Part shown: positions 1 through 14,384 of the stretch, in pieces
Layout of the letters: every line of letters begins with the position of its first letter
Position numbering within the stretch: the stretch's first letter is position 1
The notes under the pieces: model-generated
What the model was told of the DNA's origin: nothing
The model's database searches: none
What the model saw: the letters and a program-made list of their open reading frames with translations, nothing else
NCBI GenBank assembly: GCA_937859855.1
Contig: CALMAR010000028.1
Location: 1-14,384 of the forward strand
Direction of reading: 5' to 3'
Source: an uncultured Kineosporia sp.
GTDB taxonomy: Bacteria > Actinomycetota > Actinomycetes > Actinomycetales > Kineosporiaceae
Length of the DNA: 14,384 bases
Position numbers and translations under genes: made by a program

Positions 1-162
1 ATCCACGAGCTGCGGCCCCCGGCCTCCGCCCGGCTCGGAGCCTTGCACGCCAGCCCGGCCTGACCGGCGCCCAGGCACTGCTCCGGCATTCGCGCGCATT
101 CCGTTCTGGGCGGTTGCTCACCTCTGATCCGCTCTGCGGCCGATTCGGGTTAGCCTCAGCCG
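1..162. other. Upstream flank; possible tail of a preceding gene
   Basis: Frame +1 is open from the window edge to a TGA at 61-63 and would encode about 20 residues ending in LGALHASPA. This could be the C-terminus of a preceding gene, but it is too short to recognise, and other frames are also open in this GC-rich stretch. The rest, up to 162, is non-coding apart from the TAGCCT box at 151-156, which is annotated separately. Confidence 0.25.
151..156 (+). promoter_or_regulatory. Predicted -10 box (TAGCCT) for a leaderless PAS-GGDEF-EAL transcript
   Basis: TAGCCT fits the actinobacterial TANNNT -10 pattern and ends 6 nt before the GTG at 163. That spacing would place the transcription start on the start codon itself. 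No Shine-Dalgarno sequence is visible upstream of this GTG and no convincing -35 hexamer is seen, both of which fit a leaderless transcript. This is a prediction from spacing only. Confidence 0.45.
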
Positions 163-2832
163 GTGGTGCTGGACCTAGCCATGGTCGCAGCGGCCGCCCT
201 GGCCGGGTGGTCGTGGCTGACCGCTGCTCGGCTGGGCGTTCCCTTCGATCGCCGTGATGCGGTCGCGCTGGCTGTCTGGGCGACGCTGTCGGCCCTGGGC
301 CGGCTGCTGGCCAGTGTTCCCGACGCGGTGCCCCGCGGATCCTCCGGCGCCAGCGCCATGGGTCTGATCGCCGATCTGCTGCTGCTGATCGCGGGTGGAT
401 TCGCTCTGGCCGGGGCCGCCGGGATCGTGCTCCGGCTGACCCCCCCGCTGGGCGGCCTGGCCGCGATGCTGAGCGAATCCGCGCTGGTCGCCACCGCTTT
501 GGTGACCCTGGCCTGGGTCTTCACCGGAGCCAGCATGTCGCCGCCGGCGGCGGTGCTGCTCCGGGTGGCTCCCTCGGTCCTGGATCTGGCTGTGGCCGCA
601 CTGGTCCTGCAGATTCCGCTGCTGGTGCGCCTGCTGATCCGCCGGGCACCGGTGGGACAGTACCGCCGCCCGCTGCTGATCTGCGCGGCCGCGGTGTTGC
701 TGATCACGGCTGGCGACTCGGCCCTGGCCCGGCGGGCGGGGGGCGTGACCCGCCCGGGCTGGCTGAGCGGGGTACTGCTGAGCCTGGGCTACCTGGGCGC
801 CGCCGCGGTGCCGAGGATCGGCGAACTGCCAGCGGCGCCGCCGAGCCCGCGGCACGGCCTGCGGATGCTGCCGTATGTGCTGGTCGGCTCCGCGGTCGGC
901 GCCGTCTGCGTACAAGCCCTGCTGGGCCAGACCGGCACCATGGCCGTGCTGCTGGTGACCTCGGTGGTCCTGAGCCTGAGCGCGTTGCAGGCCTTCGCGC
1001 TGCGGCAGAATGACCAGCTGCTGATCGGGCTGCGCTCGTCCCGGCAGCGGCTGGACGCGCTGGTCGAGAACACCAGTGACCTGATCGTCCGGCTGGACAC
1101 CAATGGCCGGATCCTGGCCGCGAATGCCGCCGCCGTCCGGCTGCTGCACCGCACTCCCGCCTCGCTGCTCGGCCGGTCCTTCGACGACCTGGCGCGGGCC
1201 GAGGACCGGCGCCAGGTCCGGGAGGCAGTGCTGGACGTCGCCCGGGGCAAGGTGGAGGCCGCGCAGGTGGAGCTGCGGCTGAATGCGCCCGCTACCGGGA
1301 CCGCCCAGTTGCGGCTGCGCCAGCTGGACGGCGGTGCGGTGGCCAACCTGAACGACGTCACCGAATCGGTGGAACTGCGCCAGCGACTGGAGCGGCTGGC
1401 TCGCTACGACCAGATGACCGGGCTGGTCAACCGCGCTCACCTGCTGGACGTGGTCGGCTCCTGGCTGACTGAGCCGGAGCCGGACGTGGTGGTGCTCTAT
1501 GCCGACCTGGATGGCTTCAAGGCGGTCAACGACCGGTTCGGGCACGGGGCCGGCGACCGGGTGCTCGGTGAGGTGGCGGGCCGGTTCGAGGCGCTGGCCG
1601 GTGCGCTGGACGCCCGCCGGGTGATCGTCGGGCGGGTCGGCGGGGACGAGTTCGTGGTCGGGCTGGAGGGCATCCAGCCGGATGCGGCCATGCTGGCGGC
1701 CCAGCGGGTGGTGGAGGCGATCTCGCCATCCTTCATGATCAGCGACCGGACCATTCAGCTCGGGGTCAGCATCGGGCTGGCCGGCGTGGGCCGGGCGCAC
1801 GGTTACAGCGCACCCGCTGGCAGCCCGGCATCAGCTGCTGCGGCCGAACTGGTGCACCGCGCCGATCTGGCCATGTACGACGCCAAGATGAGCCGGCAGA
1901 CCCAGATCGGGCGCTGGGACCCGGAGCTGGAGGAGCGGATCCGGCGCCGGGTGGACATCGCGATGGGGTTGCGCGGGGCGCTGGACACCGGCCGGCTGGC
2001 GGTCGCCTATCAACCGGTGGTACGGCTGTCGGACGGCGTCGTGGTCGGCGCCGAGGCGCTGTTGCGGCTGCCTCCCGGCGTCGACCCCGCGCTGCTCGCG
2101 CCGGGCCTGGATGCGCTGGTCAGCCCGGCCGAGCTGGTCGCCGTGGCCGAGGACACCGGCACCATCTCGGAGATGGGGGAGTGGGTGCTCACTCAGGCGG
2201 CCAAGCAGGCTGCGATCTGGCTGGAAGCCGGCCATCAGATGAGCATCAGCGTGAACATGTCGGTGCAGCAGCTCATCCAGCCCAACTTCGTCGACTCGGT
2301 GGCCGCGATTCTGCGCGGCATCGACCTGCCCCCGGCCCGGCTGGTGCTGGAGCTGACCGAATCGCAGCTGGCCGGGCAGGTCGGGCCGTCGATGCAGGCG
2401 CTGGAGCGGCTGCGGGCGGCCGGGGTGCGGCTGGCTATCGACGACTTCGGCACCGGTTACTCGTCGCTGTCCTACCTGCGCCGGATGCCGGTCCAGCTGG
2501 TCAAGATCGACCGAACCCTGCTGGACGACGTGCAGACCGATCCGCGGGCTACCGCCCTGGTCCGCTCGGTGGTCTCGATGGCCCGGGACCTGGGTCTGCT
2601 GGTGGTGGCCGAGGGAATGGAGGACATGGAGTCGGTCCGGCTGCTGCGGGACCTCGGCGCCTACGCCGGGCAGGGATTCGCGTTGTCTCCGGCGCTGCCA
2701 CCCGAGGCGATGACCCAGGTGCTGGCCGGCCCGCGGGTGGAGATCGGGATGACCGAAGCGGGCCTGAATTCCGGCGAGCCGGACAGGGCCGCCGCCGGCG
2801 ATCCGGCTGATCTGGCCGACCGGCCCAGCTGA
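163..2832 (+). CDS. Membrane-bound PAS-GGDEF-EAL cyclic-di-GMP cyclase/phosphodiesterase
   Basis: This 889-residue protein would make and/or break down cyclic di-GMP at the inner face of the membrane. Residues 1-285 are very hydrophobic, with roughly eight membrane segments. A PAS-like sensor follows at about 290-405. The GGDEF domain has an intact GGDEF signature at 493-497, but no RxxD inhibitory site precedes it. The EAL domain has its key motifs intact: YQPVV, EALLR at 631-635, ELTES, DDFGTGYSS from 760, VKIDR and VAEGME. Phosphodiesterase activity is therefore likely, and cyclase activity is possible. The GTG at 163 is preferred because of the TAGCCT box. GTG at 166 and ATG at 181 are alternatives, and none has a clear ribosome site. 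The stop codon TGA at 2830 is the first triplet of the tandem repeat that follows. The gene has no evident functional tie to the ilv genes downstream. Confidence 0.93.
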   Translation: MVLDLAMVAAAALAGWSWLTAARLGVPFDRRDAVALAVWATLSALGRLLASVPDAVPRGSSGASAMGLIADLLLLIAGGFALAGAAGIVLRLTPPLGGLAAMLSESALVATALVTLAWVFTGASMSPPAAVLLRVAPSVLDLAVAALVLQIPLLVRLLIRRAPVGQYRRPLLICAAAVLLITAGDSALARRAGGVTRPGWLSGVLLSLGYLGAAAVPRIGELPAAPPSPRHGLRMLPYVLVGSAVGAVCVQALLGQTGTMAVLLVTSVVLSLSALQAFALRQNDQLLIGLRSSRQRLDALVENTSDLIVRLDTNGRILAANAAAVRLLHRTPASLLGRSFDDLARAEDRRQVREAVLDVARGKVEAAQVELRLNAPATGTAQLRLRQLDGGAVANLNDVTESVELRQRLERLARYDQMTGLVNRAHLLDVVGSWLTEPEPDVVVLYADLDGFKAVNDRFGHGAGDRVLGEVAGRFEALAGALDARRVIVGRVGGDEFVVGLEGIQPDAAMLAAQRVVEAISPSFMISDRTIQLGVSIGLAGVGRAHGYSAPAGSPASAAAAELVHRADLAMYDAKMSRQTQIGRWDPELEERIRRRVDIAMGLRGALDTGRLAVAYQPVVRLSDGVVVGAEALLRLPPGVDPALLAPGLDALVSPAELVAVAEDTGTISEMGEWVLTQAAKQAAIWLEAGHQMSISVNMSVQQLIQPNFVDSVAAILRGIDLPPARLVLELTESQLAGQVGPSMQALERLRAAGVRLAIDDFGTGYSSLSYLRRMPVQLVKIDRTLLDDVQTDPRATALVRSVVSMARDLGLLVVAEGMEDMESVRLLRDLGAYAGQGFALSPALPPEAMTQVLAGPRVEIGMTEAGLNSGEPDRAAAGDPADLADRPS

Positions 2833-2889
2833 CCTGCCCATTGACCTGCCCACTGACGTGCCCACTGACGTGCCCACTGACCTGCCCAG
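2830..2889. repeat. Five tandem 12-bp repeats, TGAC(C/G)TGCCCA(C/T/G)
   Basis: The units start at 2830, 2842, 2854, 2866 and 2878. They read TGACCTGCCCAT, TGACCTGCCCAC, TGACGTGCCCAC twice, and TGACCTGCCCAG. A degenerate sixth copy may precede them at 2817-2828. Because 12 is a multiple of three, every unit begins with a TGA in the frame of the upstream gene, giving five stop codons in series. The array lies 80 bp upstream of the ilvB leader peptide. It could be a protein-binding array or simply an expandable minisatellite; its function is unknown. Confidence 0.9.
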
Positions 2890-2926
2890 CCAGCGGGCTG
2901 CGGTCTCGGATGATGAGATGGCCGGG

Positions 2927-2940
2927 GTGTCGATTGACAC
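2927..2940. promoter_or_regulatory. 14-bp inverted repeat GTGTC-GATT-GACAC upstream of the ilvB leader (operator candidate)
   Basis: GTGTC and GACAC form perfect 5-bp arms around a 4-bp centre. The site ends 29 nt upstream of the leader peptide ATG. An almost identical site (GTGTC-TATA-GACAC) lies at 10880-10893, 28 nt upstream of the HTH/zinc-finger gene. The right arm contains a TTGACA (2934-2939) that looks like a -35 hexamer, but no TANNNT lies at a normal distance downstream. I therefore read the site as an operator candidate; which protein binds it is unknown. Confidence 0.55.
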
Positions 2941-2969
2941 ACGGCGCCGATCGAGGGGAGGGTGGCAGC

Positions 2970-3023
2970 ATGGTTACCCAGCACCGCAGTTCACTCCTCG
3001 TAATCGGACGGCGCGCCCGCTGA
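2970..3023 (+). CDS. ilvB operon leader peptide (MVTQHRSSLLVIGRRAR)
   Basis: This is a 17-residue ORF with a good ribosome site (GGGGAGGG at 2954-2961) before its ATG. It carries consecutive Leu-Leu-Val-Ile codons (CTC CTC GTA ATC, 2994-3005), exactly the amino acids made by the pathway downstream. GTA is a rarely used valine codon in such a GC-rich genome. Leader-peptide attenuation of ilvB operons is established in actinobacteria such as Corynebacterium. A ribosome slowed at these codons would sense scarcity of charged Leu, Val or Ile tRNA and prevent the terminator at 3049-3083 from forming. The same frame is open from 2841, but that longer reading lacks a ribosome site and would run through the 12-bp repeats, so the short form is chosen. 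Confidence 0.82.
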   Translation: MVTQHRSSLLVIGRRAR

Positions 3024-3060
3024 GGTCTTCCGTGACCCGCGAGCGCGCGACCCCTTGAGC
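3011..3060 (+). promoter_or_regulatory. Alternative RNA folds of the ilvB attenuator
   Basis: Bases 3011-3020 (GCGCGCCCGC) can pair with 3039-3048 (GCGAGCGCGC) with one mismatch. This gives a hairpin directly abutting the terminator. Alternatively, 3019-3027 (GCTGAGGTC) can pair imperfectly with 3049-3060 (GACCCCTTGAGC), which would occupy the terminator's 5' arm and act as an antiterminator. A ribosome held at the Leu/Val/Ile codons would leave 3019-3027 free, whereas one at the stop codon (3021-3023) would cover it. These pairings were found by eye and not computed. Confidence 0.45.
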
Positions 3061-3083
3061 CCTCCTGGGCCGAGGGGTCTTTT
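3049..3083 (+). terminator. Intrinsic terminator of the ilvB attenuator
   Basis: GACCCCT (3049-3055) pairs perfectly with AGGGGTC (3073-3079). An inner GCCC/GGGC stem (3059-3062 with 3067-3070) closes a TCCT loop. TTTT follows immediately at 3080-3083. It sits between the leader peptide stop and the ilvB ribosome site, the position expected of an attenuator. Confidence 0.85.
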
Positions 3084-3139
3084 CGTGCCAGCCGCAGCTC
3101 GCCCCGGACGGGCGACCCCAACTGAAGGAAGGCCCGGAA

Positions 3140-4954
3140 ATGTCAGGCCCGCACAGCACCGATCCCGCGACGGCCCCGCCAGCAACGTCGTCCCCGCCGC
3201 CCGCGATCGCGAGCCTGACCGGCGCCGAAAGCCTGGTCCGCTCGCTCGAAACGGCCGGCGTGGACGTGGTCTTCGGCATCCCCGGCGGGGCCATCCTTCC
3301 GCTCTACGACCCGCTGATGGACTCGCCGTCGGTGCGGCACATCCTGGTTCGGCACGAGCAGGGGGCCGGGCACGCCGCCGAGGGCTACGCCCATGCCACT
3401 GGGCGAGTGGGCGTCTGCATGGCCACCTCGGGACCGGGTGCGACCAACCTGGTCACCCCGATCGCCGACGCCTACATGGACTCGGTGCCGATGGTGGCGA
3501 TCACCGGGCAGGTGGCCAGTGCCGCGATCGGCACCGACGCCTTCCAGGAAGCTGACATCTCCGGAATCACCCTGCCGATCACCAAGCACAACTTCCTGGT
3601 CACTGACCCGGCCGACATTCCCAGGACGATCGCCGAGGCGTTCCACATCGCCAGCACCGGGCGTCCGGGGCCGGTGCTGGTCGACGTCTCCAAGGACGCC
3701 ATGCAGGCGGTCACTTCGTTCGCCTGGCCAGACCGGCTCGACCTGCCCGGATACCGGCCGGTCGCCCGGCCACACAGCAAGCAGGTCCGGGAGGCGGCCC
3801 GGTTGCTGATCGACTCTTCGCGGCCGGTGCTCTACGTCGGCGGCGGTGTGATCCGGGCCGGGGCCAGCGAGCAGCTGCGGGTGCTGGCTGAACTGACCGG
3901 GGCGCCGGTGGTGACCACGCTGATGGCCCGGGGCGCGTTCCCGGACTCGCACCGGCAGAACCTGGGCATGCCCGGCATGCATGGCACGGTGGCCGCCGTC
4001 GCCGCCCTGCAGCAGGCCGACCTGATCGTGAGCCTGGGCGCCCGGTTCGACGACCGGGTCACCGGCAAGCTGGCATCGTTCGCCCCGAAGGCCACCATCG
4101 TGCATGCCGACATCGACCCGGCCGAGATCTCCAAGAACCGGGTCGCCGACGTCCCGATCGTCGGTGACGCCCGGGACGTGATCGAGGAACTGACCGCCGC
4201 GATCCGGGCCGAGCACACCGCCGGGCGCCAGGGCGACCTGCAGGCGTGGTGGCGCCAACTGGACGACTGGCGCACCCAGTTCCCGCTCGGGCATGCCGCA
4301 CCGCCGGACGGCGAGGTCTCCCCGCAGGAGGTGATCGCGCGGATCGGGCAGATCTCCGGGCCGGAGTCGATCTATGTGGCCGGGGTGGGCCAGCATCAGA
4401 TGTGGGCGTCCCAGTTCATCCGGTACGAGCACCCCAACACCTGGATCAATTCCGGTGGCCTGGGCACCATGGGTTTTTCGGTGCCAGCCGCGATGGGAGC
4501 CAAGGTGGGCCGGCCAGACGTTCCGGTGTGGGCGATCGACGGCGACGGCTGCTTCCAGATGACCAACCAGGAGCTGGCCACCTGCGTGATCAACGACATC
4601 CCGATCAAGGTGGCGGTGATCAACAACTCCAGCCTGGGCATGGTCCGGCAGTGGCAGACCCTGTTCTACAACGAGCGCTACTCCAACACCGACCTGCACA
4701 CCTCAGTGGGCCGCCGGGTGCCCGACTTCGTCAAGCTGGCCGATGCCTACGGTTGTGTGGGCCTGCGCTGCGAGCATCCCAGCGACGTCGACGCCACGAT
4801 CAAGAAGGCGATGTCGATCAACGACGTCCCAGTGGTGATCGACTTTGTGGTGTTCCGGGACGCCATGGTCTGGCCGATGGTGCCCGCTGGGGTCAGCAAC
4901 GACCAGATCCAGGTCGCCAGGGACGTGTCCCCGATGTGGGACCGGGAGGACTGA
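3140..4954 (+). CDS. ilvB: Acetolactate synthase, large catalytic subunit
   Basis: This 604-residue enzyme condenses two pyruvates to acetolactate, or pyruvate and 2-oxobutyrate to acetohydroxybutyrate. That is the first common step of valine, leucine and isoleucine synthesis. Three thiamine-diphosphate enzyme regions are seen. The N-terminal pyrimidine-binding domain carries the catalytic glutamate, E73 in [15 protein letters not shown] central domain is of the FAD-associated type. The C-terminal domain has the diphosphate/Mg motif GDG (468-470) running to NN (495-496). The first 25 or so residues are a Pro/Ala/Ser/Thr-rich extension. The ATG at 3140 follows GAAGGAAGG, a good ribosome site. 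The gene starts 56 nt after the attenuator terminator, and ilvN follows 4 nt after its stop. Identity is secure. Confidence 0.98.
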
Positions 4955-4958
4955 TCAA

Positions 4959-5471
4959 ATGAGTAAGCACACGCTGTCGGTGCTGGTGGAGAACCGTCCG
5001 GGGGTCCTGACCCGGGTGGCCGGACTGTTCGCCCGGCGCGGCTTCAACATCCACTCCCTCGCCGTTGGCCCGACCGAGCACGCGGGCATCTCCCGGATGA
5101 CGGTGGTGGTGGACGTCGAGGAGTTGCCGCTCGAGCAGGTCACCAAGCAGCTGAACAAGCTGATCAATGTGATCAAGATCGTGGAATTGGAGCCGTCCCT
5201 GTCTGTGCAGCGGGAGATGCTGCTGGTCAAGGTCCGGGCCGATGTCCAGACCCGGACGCACGTGCTGGAGACCTCGGAATTGTTCCGGGCCAAGGTGATC
5301 GACGTCGCCCCGGATGCGGTCACCATCGAGGCCACCGGCAGTCCGGAGAAGCTGGACGCCTTCCTCAAGGTGCTGGAACCGTTCGGGATCCGGGAGCTGG
5401 TGCAGTCCGGCATGGTCGCGATCGGCCGGGGCAGCCGCTCGATCACCGACCGGGCCCTGCGCAGTGCCTGA
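4959..5471 (+). CDS. ilvN: Acetolactate synthase, small regulatory subunit
   Basis: This 170-residue partner of IlvB stimulates catalysis and gives feedback inhibition by valine. An N-terminal ACT domain spans about residues 4-77, with the ligand-site motif ENRPGVL (G15) and FNIHSL (N30), equivalent to the valine-binding G14 and N29 of E. coli IlvH. A C-terminal regulatory domain follows at about 85-160, ending FGIRELVQSGMVAIGRG, and the length is normal for the family. The ATG at 4959 is chosen because GGGAGGA at 4944-4950 lies 8 nt before it and the gap to ilvB is only 4 nt. The same frame is open further upstream but would overlap ilvB. Translational coupling with ilvB is likely. Confidence 0.97.
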   Translation: MSKHTLSVLVENRPGVLTRVAGLFARRGFNIHSLAVGPTEHAGISRMTVVVDVEELPLEQVTKQLNKLINVIKIVELEPSLSVQREMLLVKVRADVQTRTHVLETSELFRAKVIDVAPDAVTIEATGSPEKLDAFLKVLEPFGIRELVQSGMVAIGRGSRSITDRALRSA

Positions 5472-5485
5472 CAATCGTTGACTGA

Positions 5486-6553
<1,068 letters not shown>

Positions 6554-6564
6554 CCCGCGCCCAG

Positions 6565-6593
6565 GGTCAGCCCGGTCAGCCCAGGTTCAGCCC
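6565..6593. repeat. Three short direct repeats GGTCAGCCC between convergent genes
   Basis: GGTCAGCCC occurs at 6565-6573 and 6574-6582, and GGTTCAGCCC at 6584-6593. They fill the gap between ilvC and the convergent VOC gene and run over the VOC stop codon (6587-6589). No U-tract or strong hairpin is seen, so there is no recognisable terminator here. Confidence 0.45.
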
Positions 6594-6979
6594 GTTGCCT
6601 GGTCCGATAGCCAGGCGTACAGGTCGACGTGTGTGCCGTCCGGATCGAGGACGGTCGCGTACCGCTGACCCCAGGGGGCGTCAAAGGGCTCGGTGAAGCC
6701 GTGACCGGCCTCGGCCAGGCCGGCGTACAGCTGATCGACCGAGACCGGGCTGTCCAGCTGGACGGCCAGCGCGAACATGTTGCGCTGACCGAGAGGCTCG
6801 GTGAGAAAACCGTTTTGGCGCATGAACTCCTCACTGTCGAGCATCAGCCGGAAGGTGCCCAGCGACGCTTCGAAGTGCACGGGGCCATGATCGAACTCAC
6901 ATCCGAGCCGCTGATAGAACGCCTTGGTCGCCGCGATGTCGGCCGCAATCAGGCCGATCGCATCCAGTTTCATCTCCAT
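6587..6979 (-). CDS. VOC/glyoxalase-fold protein, function unknown
   Basis: This 130-residue protein has the vicinal oxygen chelate fold pattern. The first module starts LDAIGLIAADIAATKAFYQRLG, and the second ends ATVLDPDGTHVDLYAWLSD, typical of the glyoxalase/bleomycin-resistance/dioxygenase superfamily. The usual N-terminal metal histidine position holds no His, and the usual C-terminal Glu is an Asp (HVDLY). Canonical glyoxalase I chemistry is therefore doubtful. The start ATG at 6979 is preferred over the in-frame ATG two codons later, because TAGCGT ends 6 nt before it, as in a leaderless transcript. The gene is convergent with ilvC and divergent from serA, and nothing ties it to amino acid synthesis. 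Confidence 0.85.
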   Translation of the reverse strand: MEMKLDAIGLIAADIAATKAFYQRLGCEFDHGPVHFEASLGTFRLMLDSEEFMRQNGFLTEPLGQRNMFALAVQLDSPVSVDQLYAGLAEAGHGFTEPFDAPWGQRYATVLDPDGTHVDLYAWLSDQATG

Positions 6980-6985
6980 GCCCGA

Positions 6986-6991
6986 ACGCTA
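6986..6991 (-). promoter_or_regulatory. Predicted -10 box (TAGCGT) for a leaderless VOC gene
   Basis: On the minus strand TAGCGT is followed by six bases (TCGGGC) and then the ATG at 6979. This spacing places transcription start at the start codon. No Shine-Dalgarno sequence lies at the right distance. Confidence 0.5.
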
Positions 6992-7047
6992 TCGATGGGT
7001 CCTCCCGGCGCCGAAACGGACCGGCGGCCGGTCCCGGGATGGCGCCT

Positions 7048-7053
7048 TAGACT
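7048..7053 (+). promoter_or_regulatory. Candidate -10 box (TAGACT) for serA
   Basis: TAGACT fits TANNNT and would start transcription near 7060. That leaves a leader of about 30 nt carrying the GAGGAA ribosome site of serA. No good -35 is visible, so the call rests on the hexamer and its position in the VOC-serA divergent region. Confidence 0.35.
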
Positions 7054-7089
7054 GCAGTCCGACTTCGAATCCGTCCCCGAGGAACTCCC

Positions 7090-8679
7090 GTGCCCAAGCC
7101 TGTTGTGCTCATCGCCGAGGAACTGTCCCCCGCCACCATCGACGCTCTGGGCCCCGGCTTCGAGGTGCGGCACTGCAACGGTGCCGATCGGGCCGAACTG
7201 TTGCCAGCTCTGAACGAGGCGGACGCTGTGCTGATCCGCTCGGCCACCCGGATCGACGCCGAGGCACTGGCCGCCGCGCCCCGGCTGCACGTGGTCGCCC
7301 GGGCCGGGGTCGGACTGGACAACGTGGACGTCGCCGCCGCCACCCAGGCCGGGGTGATGGTGGTGAACGCGCCGACGTCCAACATCGTCTCGGCCGCCGA
7401 GCTGGCGATCGGGCTCATCCTGGCCACCGCCCGGCACATCCCTCAGGCCACCGCCAGCCTGAGGGCCGGGCAGTGGAAGCGCTCCTTGTTCACCGGCGCC
7501 GAACTGTTCGAGAAGACGCTCGGTGTCGCTGGTCTGGGCCGGATCGGCGTCCTGGTGGTACAGCGGCTGCAGGCGTTCGGAATGAACGTGATCGCCTACG
7601 ACCCCTATGTGCCTCCGGCCCGGGCCGGTCAGCTCGGCGTCCGGCTGGTCGGCCTGGACGAGCTGATGGCCCAGAGCGACGTCATCACCGTGCACCTGCC
7701 CAAGACCGCGGAGACCGCTGGCCTGATCGGTGCCGAGCAGTTCGCGATGGCCAAGCCGGGGCTGCGGATCGTGAACGCGGCCCGGGGCGGGATCGTGGAC
7801 GAGGCCGCGCTCTACGCCGCGCTCAAGGAGGGCCGGGTGGCTGGGGCCGGGCTGGACGTCTACGCCTCTGAGCCCTGCACCGACTCTCCGCTGTTCGAGC
7901 TGGACAGCGTGGTCGTCACCCCGCACCTGGGCGCTTCCACCGACGAGGCCCAGGAGCGGGCCGGGATCGCGGTGGCTCGATCGGTCCGGCTGGCGCTGGC
8001 CGGAGAACTGGTGCCCGACGCCGTCAACGTCTCCGGCGGCTTGATCGCGCAGGAGGTGCGGCCAGGTATCCCGCTGGCCGAGACGCTGGGCCGGATCTTC
8101 ACTGCGGTGGCCGGTGGGCTGCCCACCCACCTCGACGTCGAGGTTCGCGGCGAGATCACCAGCCAGGATGTCGGTGTGCTCCGGCTGGCCGCGGTCAAGG
8201 GGCTCTTCAGCGGCGTGGTCGAGGGCCAGGTGTCGTATGTGAACGCGCCGGTGCTGGCCAGTGAGCGGGGCATCGAGATCCGGCTGGTGACCGAGCCGGA
8301 GAGCGAGGAGTACCGCAATGTGGTCACCGTACGCGGCACGCTGGCTGACGGCACGCCGCTGGCCATCTCCGGGACCCTGACCGGCCCCAAGCAGGTGGAG
8401 AAGCTGGTCGGTATCGACGGCCACGACCTGGAGGTGGCGCTGGCCGCGTACATGCTGGTGCTGCGCTACACCGACCGGCCCGGCGTGATCGGATCGCTCG
8501 GCCGGCTGCTCGGCGACGCCGGGGTGAACATCGCCAGCATGCAGGTCGGGCGCACCGACGCGGGCGGCGAGGCGGTCAGCGTCCTGACGCTGGATGCTCG
8601 GGCCGGGCAACAGGTGATCGACGAGATCGCCGCTGAAGTGGGAGCACGCTCGGTCCGGCTGGTCACCCTGATCGACTGA
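7090..8679 (+). CDS. serA: D-3-phosphoglycerate dehydrogenase
   Basis: This 529-residue enzyme oxidises 3-phosphoglycerate to phosphohydroxypyruvate with NAD+, the first step of serine synthesis. The substrate domain is split around a Rossmann domain with GLGRIG at 148-153. The catalytic residues are R232 (NAARGGIVDE), E261 (ASEP) and H279 (TPHLGAST). After about residue 315 comes the intervening (ASB) domain found in the long actinobacterial form. A C-terminal ACT domain (about 455-529, LRYTDRPGVIGSLGRLLG) normally confers serine control. The length is very close to that of mycobacterial SerA1. The GTG at 7090 follows GAGGAA at 7079-7084. The neighbouring GGT-like gene begins 17 nt after the stop and is probably co-transcribed. 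Confidence 0.97.
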   Translation: MPKPVVLIAEELSPATIDALGPGFEVRHCNGADRAELLPALNEADAVLIRSATRIDAEALAAAPRLHVVARAGVGLDNVDVAAATQAGVMVVNAPTSNIVSAAELAIGLILATARHIPQATASLRAGQWKRSLFTGAELFEKTLGVAGLGRIGVLVVQRLQAFGMNVIAYDPYVPPARAGQLGVRLVGLDELMAQSDVITVHLPKTAETAGLIGAEQFAMAKPGLRIVNAARGGIVDEAALYAALKEGRVAGAGLDVYASEPCTDSPLFELDSVVVTPHLGASTDEAQERAGIAVARSVRLALAGELVPDAVNVSGGLIAQEVRPGIPLAETLGRIFTAVAGGLPTHLDVEVRGEITSQDVGVLRLAAVKGLFSGVVEGQVSYVNAPVLASERGIEIRLVTEPESEEYRNVVTVRGTLADGTPLAISGTLTGPKQVEKLVGIDGHDLEVALAAYMLVLRYTDRPGVIGSLGRLLGDAGVNIASMQVGRTDAGGEAVSVLTLDARAGQQVIDEIAAEVGARSVRLVTLID

Positions 8680-8696
8680 GCGAAGTGAGGCGCGCA

Positions 8697-10229
8697 GTGG
8701 CTGTTGCGCTGGCCGCTCCGAACGACGGCAGCGCCCGCGCCGGTGAGGCCGTGGCCCAGCTGGGCGGCGATGCGGTGGACGTCGCTGTGGCGGCGATGTT
8801 CGCCGCACTGGTCAGCGAGCCCGGCATCTCCTCGCTCGGCGGCGGCGGGTTCGTCACCATCGGAGGCGGGAGCGATGGCCAGCCGCCGATCACCATCGAT
8901 GGGTCGGTCGTCGTGCCGGGGCGGGGCCGTGACCCTGCGGCCGTGGCCGCCGAACCGGCGCGGCTGTTCCTGGAGTACGGCGGCGGCACCGAGATGCTGA
9001 TCGGTCCGGCGTCGGTCGCGGTGCCCGGCACCCTGACCGCGCTGGAACTGGCCCATCGGCGGTTCGGCCGGATCGGATGGGCCGAGGTGGTGGCGCCGTC
9101 CATCCAGCTGGCCCGGGACGGGTTTCAGCTCGGATCGGCCGCTGCCCACTACCTGGGCTTCGCCGGTGAACCGCTGTTCGGGCTGGACCCCTCGGCATCC
9201 GCCGTCCTGACCGGAACCGGCGGGATCGCGCTGGGCCTGGGCGACCGGATGCGGATGCCCGAGCTGGCGTCCTTCCTGGAGCGGGTCGCAGCTGAGGGGG
9301 CCGCGGCGTTGATGAGCGGGGACGTCGCGGCCGCGCTGGCCGCGCAGATGGACGAGCAGGGCGGCCTGCTGACCGCGCGCGACCTGGCTGACTATCGGCC
9401 GATCGTGCGCCCGTCGCTGCTGGTGCACAGCTCTGGGTGGACCTTCGGCACCAATCCCGGACCAGCCGTCGGCGGGGCGGTGCTGGCCGCGATGCTGACC
9501 CTGCTGGAGTCAGGCGCCGGGCCGGTTGCGCTGGCCGAGATGGTCGAGGTGCAGCGGGAGGTTCTCAGCTACCGGGTCCGGGAGCTGGACCGGGCTCCGG
9601 ACCGGGTCGCCGCGGTCCGTTCGATGCTGCAGCAGGCGGCGGCCGGCCGCCTGAACGGCCTGCGTCATGGACCGAAAGCCCCCTCCACGGTGCATGTTTC
9701 GGCGGTGGACGCGGACGGTCAGGCCTGCGCGATCACCGCTTCGGCGGGCTACGGCGCCGGGGTCAGCGTGCCCGGGACCGGGGTTTGGCTGAACAACTGC
9801 CTGGGTGAGCCGGAGCTGACCCGCGGCCGGCTCCGGCCGGGGGAGCGGCTGGTCTCTAACATGGCCCCGACGGTGGGCCGGCACGAGGACGGCCGGGTGC
9901 TGGCGATCGGCAGCCCGGGAGCGGACCGGATCGCCACCGCCGTTCTGCAGACCCTGGCCGCGCTGATCGGGGGGGCGTCGCTGGCGGATGCGGTCCGGCG
10001 GCCGCGGGTGCACGTCAGCGTGGATGATGAGGGGACGCCGCTGCGGGTGGAGTACGAGGCCGACGTGCTGTCCGCCGAGCAGGTTCCGGACGCCGCCGGC
10101 CTGCCGTGGCGCCGGCACGAGCCACTGTCCATGTTCTTCGGCGGAGTAGGAGCCGCGCTGCTCGGGTCGGCCGGGCGGCTGGCTGGCGCTGCTGATCCGC
10201 GCCGTGACGGTGCGGTCGTGCTCACCTGA
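8697..10229 (+). CDS. Gamma-glutamyltranspeptidase-like Ntn hydrolase, substrate uncertain
   Basis: This 510-residue protein belongs to the gamma-glutamyltranspeptidase family, which self-cleaves before a catalytic threonine. Family landmarks include GGDAVDVAVAA and SSLGGGGFV near the N-terminus, T331 in PSTVHVSAVDADG (the nucleophile position), and GSPGADRI in the small subunit. Two glutamate-binding positions differ from E. coli GGT: the aspartate of NNQMDD is G370 in NNCLGE, and the SS pair before MSPT is S387-N388. No signal peptide is seen, although classical GGTs are exported. It is therefore likely a cytosolic hydrolase or acylase with different specificity. GTG at 8697 is preferred because GTGAGG lies 6 nt upstream; GTG at 8685 lacks a ribosome site. 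Its stop overlaps the 3' end of the convergent zinc-finger gene by 8 bp. Confidence 0.85.
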   Translation: MAVALAAPNDGSARAGEAVAQLGGDAVDVAVAAMFAALVSEPGISSLGGGGFVTIGGGSDGQPPITIDGSVVVPGRGRDPAAVAAEPARLFLEYGGGTEMLIGPASVAVPGTLTALELAHRRFGRIGWAEVVAPSIQLARDGFQLGSAAAHYLGFAGEPLFGLDPSASAVLTGTGGIALGLGDRMRMPELASFLERVAAEGAAALMSGDVAAALAAQMDEQGGLLTARDLADYRPIVRPSLLVHSSGWTFGTNPGPAVGGAVLAAMLTLLESGAGPVALAEMVEVQREVLSYRVRELDRAPDRVAAVRSMLQQAAAGRLNGLRHGPKAPSTVHVSAVDADGQACAITASAGYGAGVSVPGTGVWLNNCLGEPELTRGRLRPGERLVSNMAPTVGRHEDGRVLAIGSPGADRIATAVLQTLAALIGGASLADAVRRPRVHVSVDDEGTPLRVEYEADVLSAEQVPDAAGLPWRRHEPLSMFFGGVGAALLGSAGRLAGAADPRRDGAVVLT

Positions 10230-10851
10230 CCCGCTCTGACCCGGTCTGGCCGGTGGTCTCGGCGATGATCTCTTCGCACAGGGCCAGGCATTCCTCACAG
10301 ATCGCGGCAGGCTTCGACGCTCCTGGCGCGATGATCAGCCGGATCGGCGAGCGCGGGTCAGCGGCCAGTTCGACCGCGGTGTGCTTGCCGCAGAACGGGC
10401 ACTGACCAGGCGCCGGCTGCTCGGCCACAGTCACCTGCTGGCCGTACACGAGTTCACCGTCCCGGTCCAGGCTCGTTCCGGCCAGGGCGACGCAGGAGTC
10501 GCAGATAGCCACGCCACCCTGGCCCGCGATCAGCTTGGTCACCTCCTGCTGGTGACGGCCGCAGAACGAACAGGGCAGAACCTGGCGGCCGAACCGGCGC
10601 ACTCGGGGAGCCCAGGTCGCTGGCTGATGGGGCCGAACGACGCTAGCGGAGCGGACGCCGAGCAACTGGTGCACTCGCTGATGACTCAGGCTCAGCGCCT
10701 CGGCGATCTCCCGCAGTGATCCGCCGTCAAGATAGAGCGCCCGGACCGCACGCTGGAAGCCGTCCCGAGCGTTCTTGACCTCCTGCTGGGCTGCTGTGAT
10801 CTTGTCCGCTGCTGATCGAGCCGAGTCCAGCAACCGTTCATCCAGCCCCAT
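10222..10851 (-). CDS. Helix-turn-helix protein with two tandem ClpX-type C4 zinc-binding modules
   Basis: In this 209-residue protein, residues 5-40 form a charged, probably helical segment. A helix-turn-helix follows at about 42-65 (GGSLREIAEALSLSHQRVHQLLG), resembling sigma region 4 or similar small actinobacterial HTHs. Two zinc-binding modules follow, like the N-terminal domain of ClpX: CSFC (94, 97) with CDSC (117, 120), and CPFC (151, 154) with CEEC (185, 188). The first also keeps the ClpX-like EVTKLIAG. There is no AAA+ ATPase domain, so it is not ClpX. A DNA-binding regulator using the zinc modules for dimerisation or partner docking is inferred. The ATG at 10851 lacks a clear Shine-Dalgarno. 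A 14-bp palindrome ends 28 nt upstream and could mediate autoregulation. Its target genes are unknown. Confidence 0.85.
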   Translation of the reverse strand: MGLDERLLDSARSAADKITAAQQEVKNARDGFQRAVRALYLDGGSLREIAEALSLSHQRVHQLLGVRSASVVRPHQPATWAPRVRRFGRQVLPCSFCGRHQQEVTKLIAGQGGVAICDSCVALAGTSLDRDGELVYGQQVTVAEQPAPGQCPFCGKHTAVELAADPRSPIRLIIAPGASKPAAICEECLALCEEIIAETTGQTGSERVR

Positions 10852-10876
10852 AGGGTCAGTCTGCGCCCAAGGTTGG

Positions 10877-10900
10877 CTTGTGTCTATAGACACTAGACAC
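10877..10900. promoter_or_regulatory. Perfect palindrome GTGTCTATAGACAC plus a third half-site (operator candidate)
   Basis: GTGTCTATAGACAC at 10880-10893 is a perfect 14-bp palindrome. It extends to 20 bp (10877-10896) with one mismatched pair. A second TAGACAC follows directly at 10894-10900. It lies 28 nt upstream of the minus-strand HTH/zinc-finger gene and 132 nt upstream of leuB. On the minus strand it overlaps plausible -10 hexamers (TAGTGT at 10895-10890, TATAGA at 10888-10883), so a bound protein could block that promoter. It shares 12 of 14 bases with the site at 2927-2940. Confidence 0.6.
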
Positions 10901-11012
10901 GCGCAGCGCGAGCCCGGGATCACGGCACCAGGAGGCGGCTGGCACTCCACTATCCGCAGCCGGCCCAGCGTCCGAAATTTGAGACGCGGAGGCCACGATC
11001 CGGACGCCCGGC

Positions 11013-11018
11013 TAGAAT
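11013..11018 (+). promoter_or_regulatory. Predicted -10 box (TAGAAT) for leaderless leuB
   Basis: TAGAAT is close to the consensus -10 and ends 7 nt before the leuB GTG at 11026. Transcription would start at or next to the start codon. No ribosome site lies between the box and the GTG. No good -35 is found at 16-19 bp upstream. Confidence 0.6.
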
Positions 11019-11025
11019 CATTCTC

Positions 11026-12087
11026 GTGAGCACGGTCACTGCGCCCTCGTCGATCCGGCTTGCCGTCATCGCCGGAGACGGCATCGGCCCAGAAGTGGTG
11101 GCCGAGGGTCTCAAGGTGCTCCGCGCCGCCGCCGGTTCCGAGGTCGACCTGCAGACCACGGAGTACGACCTTGGTGCCCGCCGCTGGCATGCCACCGGCG
11201 AGACGCTTCCAGATTCGGCGCTGGCCGAGATCCGGCAGCACGATGCGATCCTGCTCGGCGCGGTCGGCGATCCCGGCGTCCCAAGCGGTGTGCTCGAGCG
11301 GGGCTTGCTGCTCAGGCTGCGGTTCGAGCTCGATCATTACGTGAACCTGCGCCCGGCCAAGATCTATCCCGGCGTCAGCTCGCCGCTGAGCGACCGGGTC
11401 GTGGCGGACGGCGTCGACTTCGTCGTGGTCCGGGAGGGCACTGAGGGCCCTTACGTGGGCAACGGTGGCTCGGTCCGGATCGGCACCCCGAACGAGATCG
11501 CCACCGAGGTCAGCATCAACACCGCTTTCGGCGTCGAGCGTGTGGTCCGGGACGCCTTCACCCGCGCCGCCGGCCGCCCGCGCCGCCATCTCACCCTGCT
11601 GCACAAGCAGAACGTGCTGACCCACGCCGGCCACCTCTGGCGCCGCACGTTCGAGCGCGTCGGCCAGGAGTTCCCCGCGGTCAGCACCAGCTACATGCAC
11701 GTCGATGCGGCCACCATCTTCCTGGTCACGCAGCCATCCCGGTTCGACGTGATCGTGACCGACAACCTGTTCGGCGACATCGTCACCGACCTGGCCGCGG
11801 CTATCACAGGCGGCATCGGGCTGGCTGCTTCGGGGAACATCAACCCGGAGCGAACCACGCCCAGCATGTTCGAGCCGGTGCACGGCTCGGCCCCCGACAT
11901 CGCCGGCCAGCAGAAGGCCGACCCCGCCGCCACCATCCTGTCGGTGGCGATGCTGCTGGAGCACCTGGGCCTGGACAAGGCCGCCGAGCGAGTAGAGCAG
12001 GCCGTCGCTGCCGACTTCGAGGCTCGCGACGGCCAATCCCAGCGCAGCACAGCGCAGATCGGTGACGCCATCTCCTCGCGTCTGTAG
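11026..12087 (+). CDS. leuB: 3-isopropylmalate dehydrogenase
   Basis: This 353-residue enzyme oxidatively decarboxylates 3-isopropylmalate to 2-oxoisocaproate with NAD+ and Mg2+, in the leucine branch. GDGIGPEV (18-25) is the N-terminal signature. The substrate arginines lie in [17 protein letters not shown] (R97, R109) and [13 protein letters not shown] (R136, Y143). K194 in LLHKQNVL is catalytic. The metal aspartates are D227, D251 and D255 ([10 protein letters not shown]), and GSAPDIAG is the NAD-loop motif. The size fits the actinobacterial LeuB group. The GTG at 11026 is supported by the TAGAAT box 7 nt upstream. A strong hairpin follows the stop codon, and ilvE begins 73 nt downstream. 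Confidence 0.97.
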
Positions 12088-12109
12088 CAGCTTGCCAGGC
12101 GGCAACTGC
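12087..12109 (+). other. RNA hairpin at the leuB stop codon
   Basis: GCAG and TTGCC (12087-12096, with one bulged C) pair with GGCAA and CTGC (12101-12109) around an AGGC loop. No U-tract follows. It could be a U-less terminator, a 3'-end stabiliser, or a processing signal between leuB and ilvE. Confidence 0.5.
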
Positions 12110-12125
12110 GAGCGATCAGCGCTGG

Positions 12126-12131
12126 TAACGT
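12126..12131 (+). promoter_or_regulatory. Weak -10 candidate (TAACGT) for ilvE
   Basis: TAACGT fits TANNNT and is preceded by TGG, roughly like an extended -10. It would start transcription near 12138, upstream of the ilvE ribosome site AGGAG (12150-12154). No -35 is apparent. ilvE could equally be read through from leuB. Confidence 0.25.
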
Positions 12132-12160
12132 CCGATCAGGGCCCACGCTAGGAGCTTGCA

Positions 12161-13249
12161 ATGGAAATAACGATCACATCCAACCCCCGACCCGCTACGC
12201 AGCAGCGCCGGGAAGAGATCCTGGCCGCCCCCGGGTTCGGCCGGTTCTTCACCGACCATATGTTCGCCGCCACCTGGGGCCCCGAACAGGGCTGGCACGA
12301 CCAGCGGATCGTGCCCTACGGCCCGATCCAGCTCGAACCGGCCGCGGCTGTCCTGCACTACGCCCAGGAGAGCTTCGAAGGGCTCAAGGCCTACCGCTGG
12401 GCTGATGGCTCGATCTGGGCCTTCCGGCCCGACGCCAACGCGGCCCGGATGTCCCGCTCGGCCGCCCGGCTGGCGATGCCCGAGGTGCCGGCCGAGGACT
12501 TCGTGGCGGCGATCCAGGAGCTGGTCGCCGTGGACCAGGCCTGGGCCGGCGCCTCCGCCGGCGGCGGTGAGGCCAGTCTGTATCTGCGGCCGTTCATGTT
12601 CGCCTCCGAGGTCTTCCTGGGAGTGCGCCCTGCGCTGAGCTACGAGTTCATGGTGATCGCTTCGCCGGTCGGCCCCTACTTCAAGAGCGGGGTCAAGCCG
12701 GTCAAGATCTGGTTGTCCACCGAATACACCCGGGCCGCTCCCGGCGGCACCGGCGCGGCCAAGTGTGGCGGCAACTACGCGTCCAGCCTGGCTCCGATGG
12801 TCGAAGCCGCCTCGCACGGTTGCGAGCAGGTGTGCTTCCTCGATGCCAGCGAGCAGAAGTGGATCGAAGAACTGGGCGGGATGAACATCTACTTCGTCCG
12901 TACGGACGGCACCCTGGTCACTCCGCCCACCTCGGGCACCATCCTGGAGGGCGTGACCCGCAGCTCGATCATGGAGCTGGCCAAGGAACAGGGCTTGAAC
13001 GTGGAGGAACGCCGGGTCAGCATCGACGAGTGGCGAGACGGCGTCACCTCCGGGCAGATCAGCGAGATCTTCGCCTGCGGAACAGCGGCAGTGATCACCC
13101 CGGTCGGCGAGCTGCACTGGGACGGCGGATCAGCGATCACCGGCGACGGCACGCCCGGGGCGGTGACGACCGGGATCCGGCAGGCGCTGGTCGATATCCA
13201 GTACGGCCGGGCCGAAGACACCCACGGCTGGATGCGCCGCCTGGTCTGA
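12161..13249 (+). CDS. ilvE: Branched-chain amino acid aminotransferase
   Basis: This 362-residue, pyridoxal-phosphate-dependent, fold-type IV enzyme interconverts Val, Leu and Ile with their 2-oxo acids using glutamate. It is the last step of all three pathways. The PLP lysine is K201 in GTGAAKCGGNYASS, matching the position of K202 in human mitochondrial BCAT. LHYAQESFEGLKAYR and the cofactor loop region SGTILEGVTRSSIMELA are typical of the longer BCAT type found in actinobacteria and eukaryotes. The ATG at 12161 follows AGGAG (12150-12154) at 6 nt. It lies 73 nt after leuB on the same strand, so co-transcription is possible despite the hairpin between them. Its 3' end is only 2 bp from the convergent secreted-protein gene. 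Confidence 0.97.
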   Translation: MEITITSNPRPATQQRREEILAAPGFGRFFTDHMFAATWGPEQGWHDQRIVPYGPIQLEPAAAVLHYAQESFEGLKAYRWADGSIWAFRPDANAARMSRSAARLAMPEVPAEDFVAAIQELVAVDQAWAGASAGGGEASLYLRPFMFASEVFLGVRPALSYEFMVIASPVGPYFKSGVKPVKIWLSTEYTRAAPGGTGAAKCGGNYASSLAPMVEAASHGCEQVCFLDASEQKWIEELGGMNIYFVRTDGTLVTPPTSGTILEGVTRSSIMELAKEQGLNVEERRVSIDEWRDGVTSGQISEIFACGTAAVITPVGELHWDGGSAITGDGTPGAVTTGIRQALVDIQYGRAEDTHGWMRRLV

Positions 13250-13251
13250 CC

Positions 13252-13779
13252 TCAGCCGAGCGTGTCGCAGATGTTCTCCACCCGCCCGGTGCCAAGCGAC
13301 AGCACCCGCGAGCCGTCCGCGGCCACGGCGAGCGAATGCCCATGCCCGGACAGCACGAAGAAACCCGGGCCGCCGGGATCGGTGGCGGCGAGGCCAGCGG
13401 CGAAGTGGCCGCTGGCCAGCGTGATGGTGAACGAGCCGTCAGTGCCATACCGCACGGTCGCGCGACCAGTAAGGTTGCGCCGCACCGATTCTCCGCTGCT
13501 GGTGTTGGTGTAGCGGACGATCAGCGGGCCCCTGATCTGTTGCAGCTCGGGTGAACCGCCGGGGTAGGTGCTCAGAGTACGGATCTCTTCGCGGTCGCGC
13601 AGGATGTCGCCGTTCAGCCCGAACGAGCACCGGGTGCCCGCGGCCAGCTGGAACGGCTGTGAGCGATAGGGCGTCCACGCAGTGGGCTTCGTTTCGCCCG
13701 GCGTGGCTGCACTGGCCGAAACGACCGGGGTCATCAGGACAGTGACCACAGCGAGGATTCCCAGGGCACGGCGAATCAT
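13252..13779 (-). CDS. Secreted protein of unknown function
   Basis: This 175-residue protein has a Sec-type signal peptide: MIRR, a hydrophobic stretch (about 5-20), and a likely cleavage after SASA (about residue 24). No lipobox cysteine is present. The mature part is beta-rich and Gly/Thr/Ser-rich, with two cysteines (C51, C171) near its ends that could form a disulfide. Features such as VRYTNTSSGESVRRNLTGRA and DPGGPGFFVLSGHG recall a loosely defined family of small actinobacterial secreted proteins, but I cannot assign a function. The ATG at 13779 follows GGGAGGA at 7 nt, a strong ribosome site. The frame is open further upstream but lacks that support. It is convergent with ilvE and divergent from the rhomboid-like gene. 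Confidence 0.8.
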   Translation of the reverse strand: MIRRALGILAVVTVLMTPVVSASAATPGETKPTAWTPYRSQPFQLAAGTRCSFGLNGDILRDREEIRTLSTYPGGSPELQQIRGPLIVRYTNTSSGESVRRNLTGRATVRYGTDGSFTITLASGHFAAGLAATDPGGPGFFVLSGHGHSLAVAADGSRVLSLGTGRVENICDTLG

Positions 13780-13869
13780 GGCATATCCTCCCAATCCGGA
13801 AAGTGCCATCCTGCCACCCATGACCGGAATCCACGCCTGCCGAGCCGCCCGGGTAGGAGGCTGAAGGCC

Positions 13870-14384
13870 GTGAGCACATCGGGCGGGGGCCTGCTCAATG
13901 CCATTCTCTACCTGACCGACGTGGCCCTGGCCGTACAACTGGCGCTGGCCCTGAACGGGCGGACCAGGGTGGAACAGGCGCCGCCGGGCCTGGGCCCGGG
14001 CGGCCTGGCCGGAGCGGCGGCGATCTGGCTGGTGGTGGCCGTCCCCTCCACCCTGCAGTTCCCCTTCCCCGGGGTGCTCCACGCCCTGAGCCGCGACCCC
14101 GGCCTGATCAAGAGCGGTCAGGTCTGGCGGCTGCTGACCAGCATGGTGGTGCAGGACGGCGGGATCCCAGGCACGGCGTTCAACCTGGTGATCCTGGCTG
14201 TGGTGGTGCCGATCGCGATGCTGGCCTGGGGCCCGGGCATGACCCTGACCCTGCTGCTCGGGAGCCAGCTGATCTTCGGCTCAGTGGTGACCTTCGCCTG
14301 GCCGAGTTCGGGCGCGGGCAACTCCGCGGCCACGCTCGGCCTGGCCGCATCGCTGGCCGGGCTGGTGCTGACCCGGTCCTGGCC
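13870..14384 (+). CDS. Rhomboid-like membrane protein, cut by the window end
   Basis: The frame from the GTG at 13870 is open to the window edge (171 complete codons). It encodes a hydrophobic protein with about four to five membrane segments in the visible part. VWRLLTSMV (W86, R87) and a later GNSAATLGLAASLAG (S152) match the order of rhomboid intramembrane serine protease motifs, WR followed by the GxSG region. Here the serine motif reads G-N-S-A. The catalytic histidine would lie beyond the window, so protease activity cannot be judged. GGAGG at 13856-13860 precedes the GTG by 9 nt. A 90-bp divergent intergenic region separates it from the secreted-protein gene. Confidence 0.65.
   Translation, partial: MSTSGGGLLNAILYLTDVALAVQLALALNGRTRVEQAPPGLGPGGLAGAAAIWLVVAVPSTLQFPFPGVLHALSRDPGLIKSGQVWRLLTSMVVQDGGIPGTAFNLVILAVVVPIAMLAWGPGMTLTLLLGSQLIFGSVVTFAWPSSGAGNSAATLGLAASLAGLVLTRSW

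Follow-up and report, generated by a model that had tools for sequence, protein, structure and literature searches.

Two near-identical palindromes over proposed -35 boxes of the ilvB leader and of a helix-turn-helix/zinc-finger gene in an uncultured Kineosporia

Why should two almost identical palindromes stand at almost the same distance from the start codons of two different genes? The question is raised by a stretch of 14,384 nucleotides (nt) from an uncultured Kineosporia sp. (GenBank assembly GCA_937859855.1, contig CALMAR010000028.1, positions 1 to 14,384 of the forward strand), the whole of which is here called the window. Palindrome 1, GTGTCGATTGACAC (2927..2940, given on the plus strand, the choice being arbitrary as the site is symmetric), lies in front of the leader of the branched-chain synthesis genes ilvBNC, and palindrome 2, GTGTCTATAGACAC (10880..10893, minus strand, likewise symmetric), in front of a gene for a protein with a helix-turn-helix (HTH) and zinc fingers. 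Both are operator-like and were located by pattern search. A preliminary description of this DNA had them at these coordinates, differing in two of 14 bases, both intergenic, 29 nt from the ATG at 2970 in one case and 28 nt from the ATG at 10851 in the other, and without a further exact copy, all of which was borne out: GTGTCNNNNGACAC (GTGTCN4GACAC) is matched in the window by these two sites only. When up to two mismatches are allowed there are 11 matches, which is the level of chance (the shuffle mean is 9.09, and 65 of 200 shuffles reach 11). The description went on to propose a single regulator for ilvBNC and the HTH/zinc-finger gene. Understood as one operator that overlies the -35 box in both places, that remains the best reading, and we put it at a little better than an even chance that the palindromes are copies of one operator over the -35 boxes of the ilvB leader and HTH/zinc-finger promoters; less secure is the use of the equal distance as itself a signature of regulation.

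Promoter geometry at the ilvB leader and the HTH/zinc-finger gene

The ilvB gene, first of ilvBNC (3140..4954, plus strand, by family search), is preceded at 2970-3083 by a leader attenuator of known actinobacterial kind, in which a peptide with branched-chain codons is followed by a terminator before ilvB. The leader peptide, MVTQHRSSLLVIGRRAR (2970..3023, plus strand), has LLVIGRR in common with the Nocardia and Tsukamurella leaders, and the terminator found by folding consists of a hairpin and then CTTTTC (3049..3083, plus strand), the hairpin with a fold z of -2.62 and the T-run after it; an Rfam search of 2970-3083 gave no match up to E 0.5. The ilv leader attenuators of S. lividans (PMC8079986) and C. 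glutamicum (PMC11857589) and those of a survey (PMC1262725) are alike in having a short leader peptide with branched-chain codons, a promoter directly before its start codon and a terminator hairpin before ilvB. The window leader differs from them in a Shine-Dalgarno-like GGAGG, in a weak -10 and in the palindrome over its -35 box.

Where would the promoters be? The right half of palindrome 1 holds TTGACA (2934..2939, plus strand), a hexamer found nowhere else in the window on either strand. It is proposed as the -35 box for the ilvB leader and begins at -36 relative to the leader ATG. When every hexamer pair within 75 nt upstream is scored, the best before the leader is TTGACA-18-GAGGGT-6-ATG. 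Its proposed -10, GAGGGT (2958..2963, plus strand), is weak and matches only A2 and T6 of TANNNT, and since the TA dinucleotide is absent from 2833-2969 no better TANNNT is possible there. The same scoring before the HTH/zinc-finger gene gives TAGACA-17-CAGACT-6-ATG, with a proposed -35 box, TAGACA (10881..10886, minus strand), at -35 from the ATG, and again a proposed weak -10, CAGACT (10858..10863, minus strand); the single TANNNT upstream of that gene, TAGTGT, stops 38 nt short of the ATG.

Hexamer scoring of the ilvB leader promoters of three other actinobacteria agrees with the choice of TTGACA: the results are TTGACT-18-TAACGT-7-GTG in Nocardia farcinica, TTGACG-18-TACTTT-7-GTG in Tsukamurella tyrosinosolvens and TTGGCG-19-TATGGT-7-ATG in Nonomuraea gerenzanensis, with the -35 box at -37 to -38. 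The ilv leader of S. lividans is leaderless by RNA-seq (PMC8079986), and in C. glutamicum the transcription start of the ilv leader and its start codon are one nucleotide apart (PMC11857589). From the comparator boxes, these leaderless or nearly leaderless ilv leaders and a proposed -10 of leuB in the window itself (TAGAAT, 11013..11018, plus strand, 7 nt before its GTG, also by hexamer scoring), one would therefore expect a -35 box some 30 nt ahead of the start codon, and the palindromes overlie it. The equal distances are correct as measured, but promoter geometry explains them if both genes start at or near their transcription starts. Should promoters alone turn out to be involved, there is a caution here, in that equal distances to start codons can stem from the -35 boxes of leaderless transcripts rather than from a regulator.

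Palindrome 2 lies inside the 174-base gap that separates the HTH/zinc-finger gene from the divergent leuB (GTG at 11026), with 132 nt between its near end and the leuB start. By position it can serve either gene; a promoter-type position it has for the HTH/zinc-finger gene only. Directly adjoining it in tandem is a further half-site (10894..10900, minus strand; TAGACAC on the plus strand, GTGTCTA on the minus), which brings the half-sites of this region to three.

One operator, or two -35 boxes?

How might a shared operator act? Transcripts of the ilvB leader and of the HTH/zinc-finger gene would begin with the start codon or close to it, and we infer that the right-arm hexamers are used as -35 boxes and that one and the same dimeric regulator binds GTGTCN4GACAC at both places; in covering the right-arm hexamer, it would keep sigma-A and RNA polymerase off. 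The likeliest action would be repression, which at ilvB would be added on top of, and come before, attenuation by the leader peptide, and the HTH/zinc-finger gene would be repressed alike, perhaps in the manner of self-repression. If so, a Kineosporiaceae-like lineage controls ilvBNC by a transcriptional layer at the -35 box in addition to attenuation.

The main alternative is that the right arms are -35 boxes and nothing else, that the left arms match them by chance, and that there is no shared operator, which we regard as possible though doubtful. The -35 reading alone accounts for the right arms and for the equal distance. Can chance supply the rest? In simulated Markov windows of full length, a 5-bp perfect inverted repeat common to two intergenic stretches, with any arm and a spacer of 0-12, is found in 31 of 300, which favours the alternative. 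Resampling of the upstream regions gives an inverted repeat common to two of them (spacer 0-10) in 99 of 2000 cases when distance is ignored, and in 3 of 2000 when equal distance (plus or minus 1, within 60 nt) is added. The upstream region of leuB was excluded from that resampling, because the HTH/zinc-finger gene has the same DNA upstream, and six serA/glyoxalase pairs in the observed list are meaningless, being one stretch read from both sides. Ten random upstream regions were also given planted -35 and -10 boxes; an inverted repeat shared at equal distance then came up in one of 2000 trials at each of three settings, and none had two or more A/T in the repeat arm. Because planted -35 boxes alone so rarely yield a shared left arm, the operator is preferred: two flawless left arms with spacers of one length (3 of 2000 by resampling, 1 of 2000 when promoters were planted) are what the alternative handles poorly, along with the third half-site at palindrome 2. 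By itself the palindrome pair is only mildly surprising, the equal distance to the ATGs raises the surprise, and taken together the chance tests speak fairly, though not strongly, for an operator that is real. Counted in its favour are the two exact sites, the sole TTGACA within the first of them, the best hexamer pairs, the comparator promoters, the leaderless or nearly leaderless ilv leaders, the planted-box trials, the rarity of the motif in Nocardia (1 in 2.66 Mb) and a published NdgR site at ilvB that ends in TTGAC.

Several points weigh against a shared operator and the promoters proposed with it. The loosest chance test, for a shared repeat in any intergenic DNA, reaches 10%, and all of the chance tests are post hoc, having been designed once the pair had been seen. 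Both -10 hexamers are weak, lacking T at position 1 and keeping A2 and T6 alone, and a consensus promoter scan found no promoter in either palindrome-bearing gap. The Shine-Dalgarno-like GGAGG (2957-2961) overlaps the proposed -10 GAGGGT, and the ilvB leader may on that account not be leaderless, as a leaderless message needs no ribosome-binding site. Then there is conservation, whose lack upstream of ilvB in related species was offered in advance by the preliminary description as grounds for giving the idea up. GTGTCN4GACAC is absent from the ilvB/leuB stretches (29.0, 29.0, 41.0, 7.0 and 7.0 kb) of Nocardia, Tsukamurella and Nonomuraea, which sits well with there being no operator, though these three distant comparators belong to other orders and absence there says little on the window's own lineage. 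The one replicon searched throughout, from Nocardia (2,657,929 bases), has the motif once, as it has a backward control pattern; the record lacks gene annotation, and the motif falls within an open frame of 318 amino acids. A scan of genome contigs in the conservation check returned clostridial loci only.

Which protein would bind?

For a shared operator there are three candidate proteins, and the chances we give them are parts of that given to the operator, not additions to it. The likeliest single one, though still a tentative choice with the odds well against it, is the HTH/zinc-finger protein, already named as a possibility in the preliminary description, which would bind GTGTCN4GACAC, repress its own gene and control ilvBNC; support for it is indirect. 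Its gene (10230..10851, minus strand), which palindrome 2 adjoins, encodes by family and profile searches an HTH that is probably like that of sigma-70 region 4, together with ClpX-type C4 zinc fingers. A region-4 HTH reads -35-like DNA, and the ClpX zinc-binding domain is a dimer in ClpX. The profile for sigma-70 region 4, PF04545, finds 108 of the 118 family members with E values of 0.01 or lower, and other HTH profiles also find many of them; against this, the window protein itself reaches 19.2 bits, under the curated cut-off of 24.1. Its match to the ClpX C4 zinc-binding profile PF06689 is far above the cut-off of 27 (75.2 bits, E 3.7e-21). In a 118-row alignment the zinc-finger cysteines C94, C97, C117 and C120 are invariant and so, in the recognition helix, are S56, H57, Q58, R59 and Q62, the latter a point in favour of this candidate. 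The predicted structure (mean pLDDT 80.1) has helices at 46-52 and 57-64; the HTH finds only weak and unspecific structural matches in the PDB, which tells against this candidate, and by sequence the ClpX zinc-binding domain is matched at E 3.9e-17.

The family, with 1513 proteins at E 0.001, is large and apparently uncharacterised, and a limited literature search found no paper on it. A first DNA motif and a first target for it would follow if its member here is the regulator. One may go further and picture a family, widespread in actinobacteria, whose region-4-like HTH and dimerising ClpX-type zinc finger read a palindrome of half-sites that mimic the -35 box, so that it would compete with sigma-A both for its own promoter and for that of ilvBNC and would tie branched-chain synthesis to an uncharacterised protein; that larger picture we consider unlikely. 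A protein 57% identical to the HTH protein and another 82% identical to LeuB are each on a JGI contig of 4759 bases, and as the two contigs are probably the same one, this suggests that the neighbourhood of the HTH gene and leuB has been kept in a relative.

Could the sites instead belong to WhiA? Its DNA-binding domain resembles sigma region 4. Each palindrome holds both GACAC and GTGTC, i.e., a WhiA half-site in either orientation, with a third copy at palindrome 2, and GACAC is what WhiA of S. venezuelae binds (PMC3781837). The reported motif is short and asymmetric, a single GACAC, and WhiA was bound as a monomer (PMC3781837), which does not predict the exact inverted pair with a 4-bp spacer that the window has twice; moreover, nine of the 14 copies of GACAC/GTGTC in the window are elsewhere than at the palindrome sites. 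On sequence grounds, then, WhiA seems improbable.

The known branched-chain regulators are no nearer. NdgR of S. coelicolor binds at ilvB, leuB and leuC/ndgR with a 15-bp motif, [GT]T[CT]CAC[CA][CTA][TC][GC][TC]GGAC, and the published site of the ilvB region ends in TTGAC, as over a -35 box (PMC4340878). The placing of operators upstream of ilvBNC and leuB for branched-chain control is shared with the window; the motif, 15 bp as compared with the 14 bp of GTGTCN4GACAC, is not. A matrix built from 18 published sites, which themselves score 11.5 to 19.9, gives the palindromes -14.8 to -5.4, so that they are not NdgR-like. The leuB region of Nonomuraea reaches 13.7 and its ilvB region 9.7, and the values near ilvB are 7.3 in Nocardia and at most 4.5 in Tsukamurella. 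That the palindromes are sites of a local IclR-type NdgR/LtbR regulator whose motif has diverged is thus suggested by the S. coelicolor targets and the Nonomuraea scores, and is made very doubtful by the matrix values, by the differing spacing and half-sites, and by leuB retaining two sites with a weak likeness to NdgR sites, scored 9.7 and 9.4, an observation at odds with a change of motif.

leuB and the neighbouring genes

Those two weak sites are just upstream of the leuB -10: GGCCACGATCCGGAC (10991..11005, plus strand, 9.7) lies over the -35 position and the other (9.4) is at 10970-10984. The 9.7 falls below all 18 published sites, and as at least a dozen higher scores occur elsewhere in the window, including inside genes, the candidates prove little. 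The leuB message itself looks leaderless (TAGAAT, 7 nt, GTG; 11013-11026), to be compared with the TATGGT, 7 nt and ATG of Nonomuraea, and the closest named matches of LeuB are from Kineosporia species, at 78-81% identity, by which one protein the window was judged Kineosporiaceae-like.

The window as a whole holds genes for a PAS-GGDEF-EAL protein, ilvB-ilvN-ilvC, a glyoxalase-type protein (minus strand), serA (named by position and reading, without a family search), a gamma-glutamyltranspeptidase, the HTH/zinc-finger protein (minus strand), leuB and an aminotransferase of class IV read as ilvE. Directly behind the GGDEF-EAL gene and ahead of palindrome 1, at 2835-2894, a 12-bp unit (TGCCCACTGACG and variants) is present in four or five head-to-tail copies.

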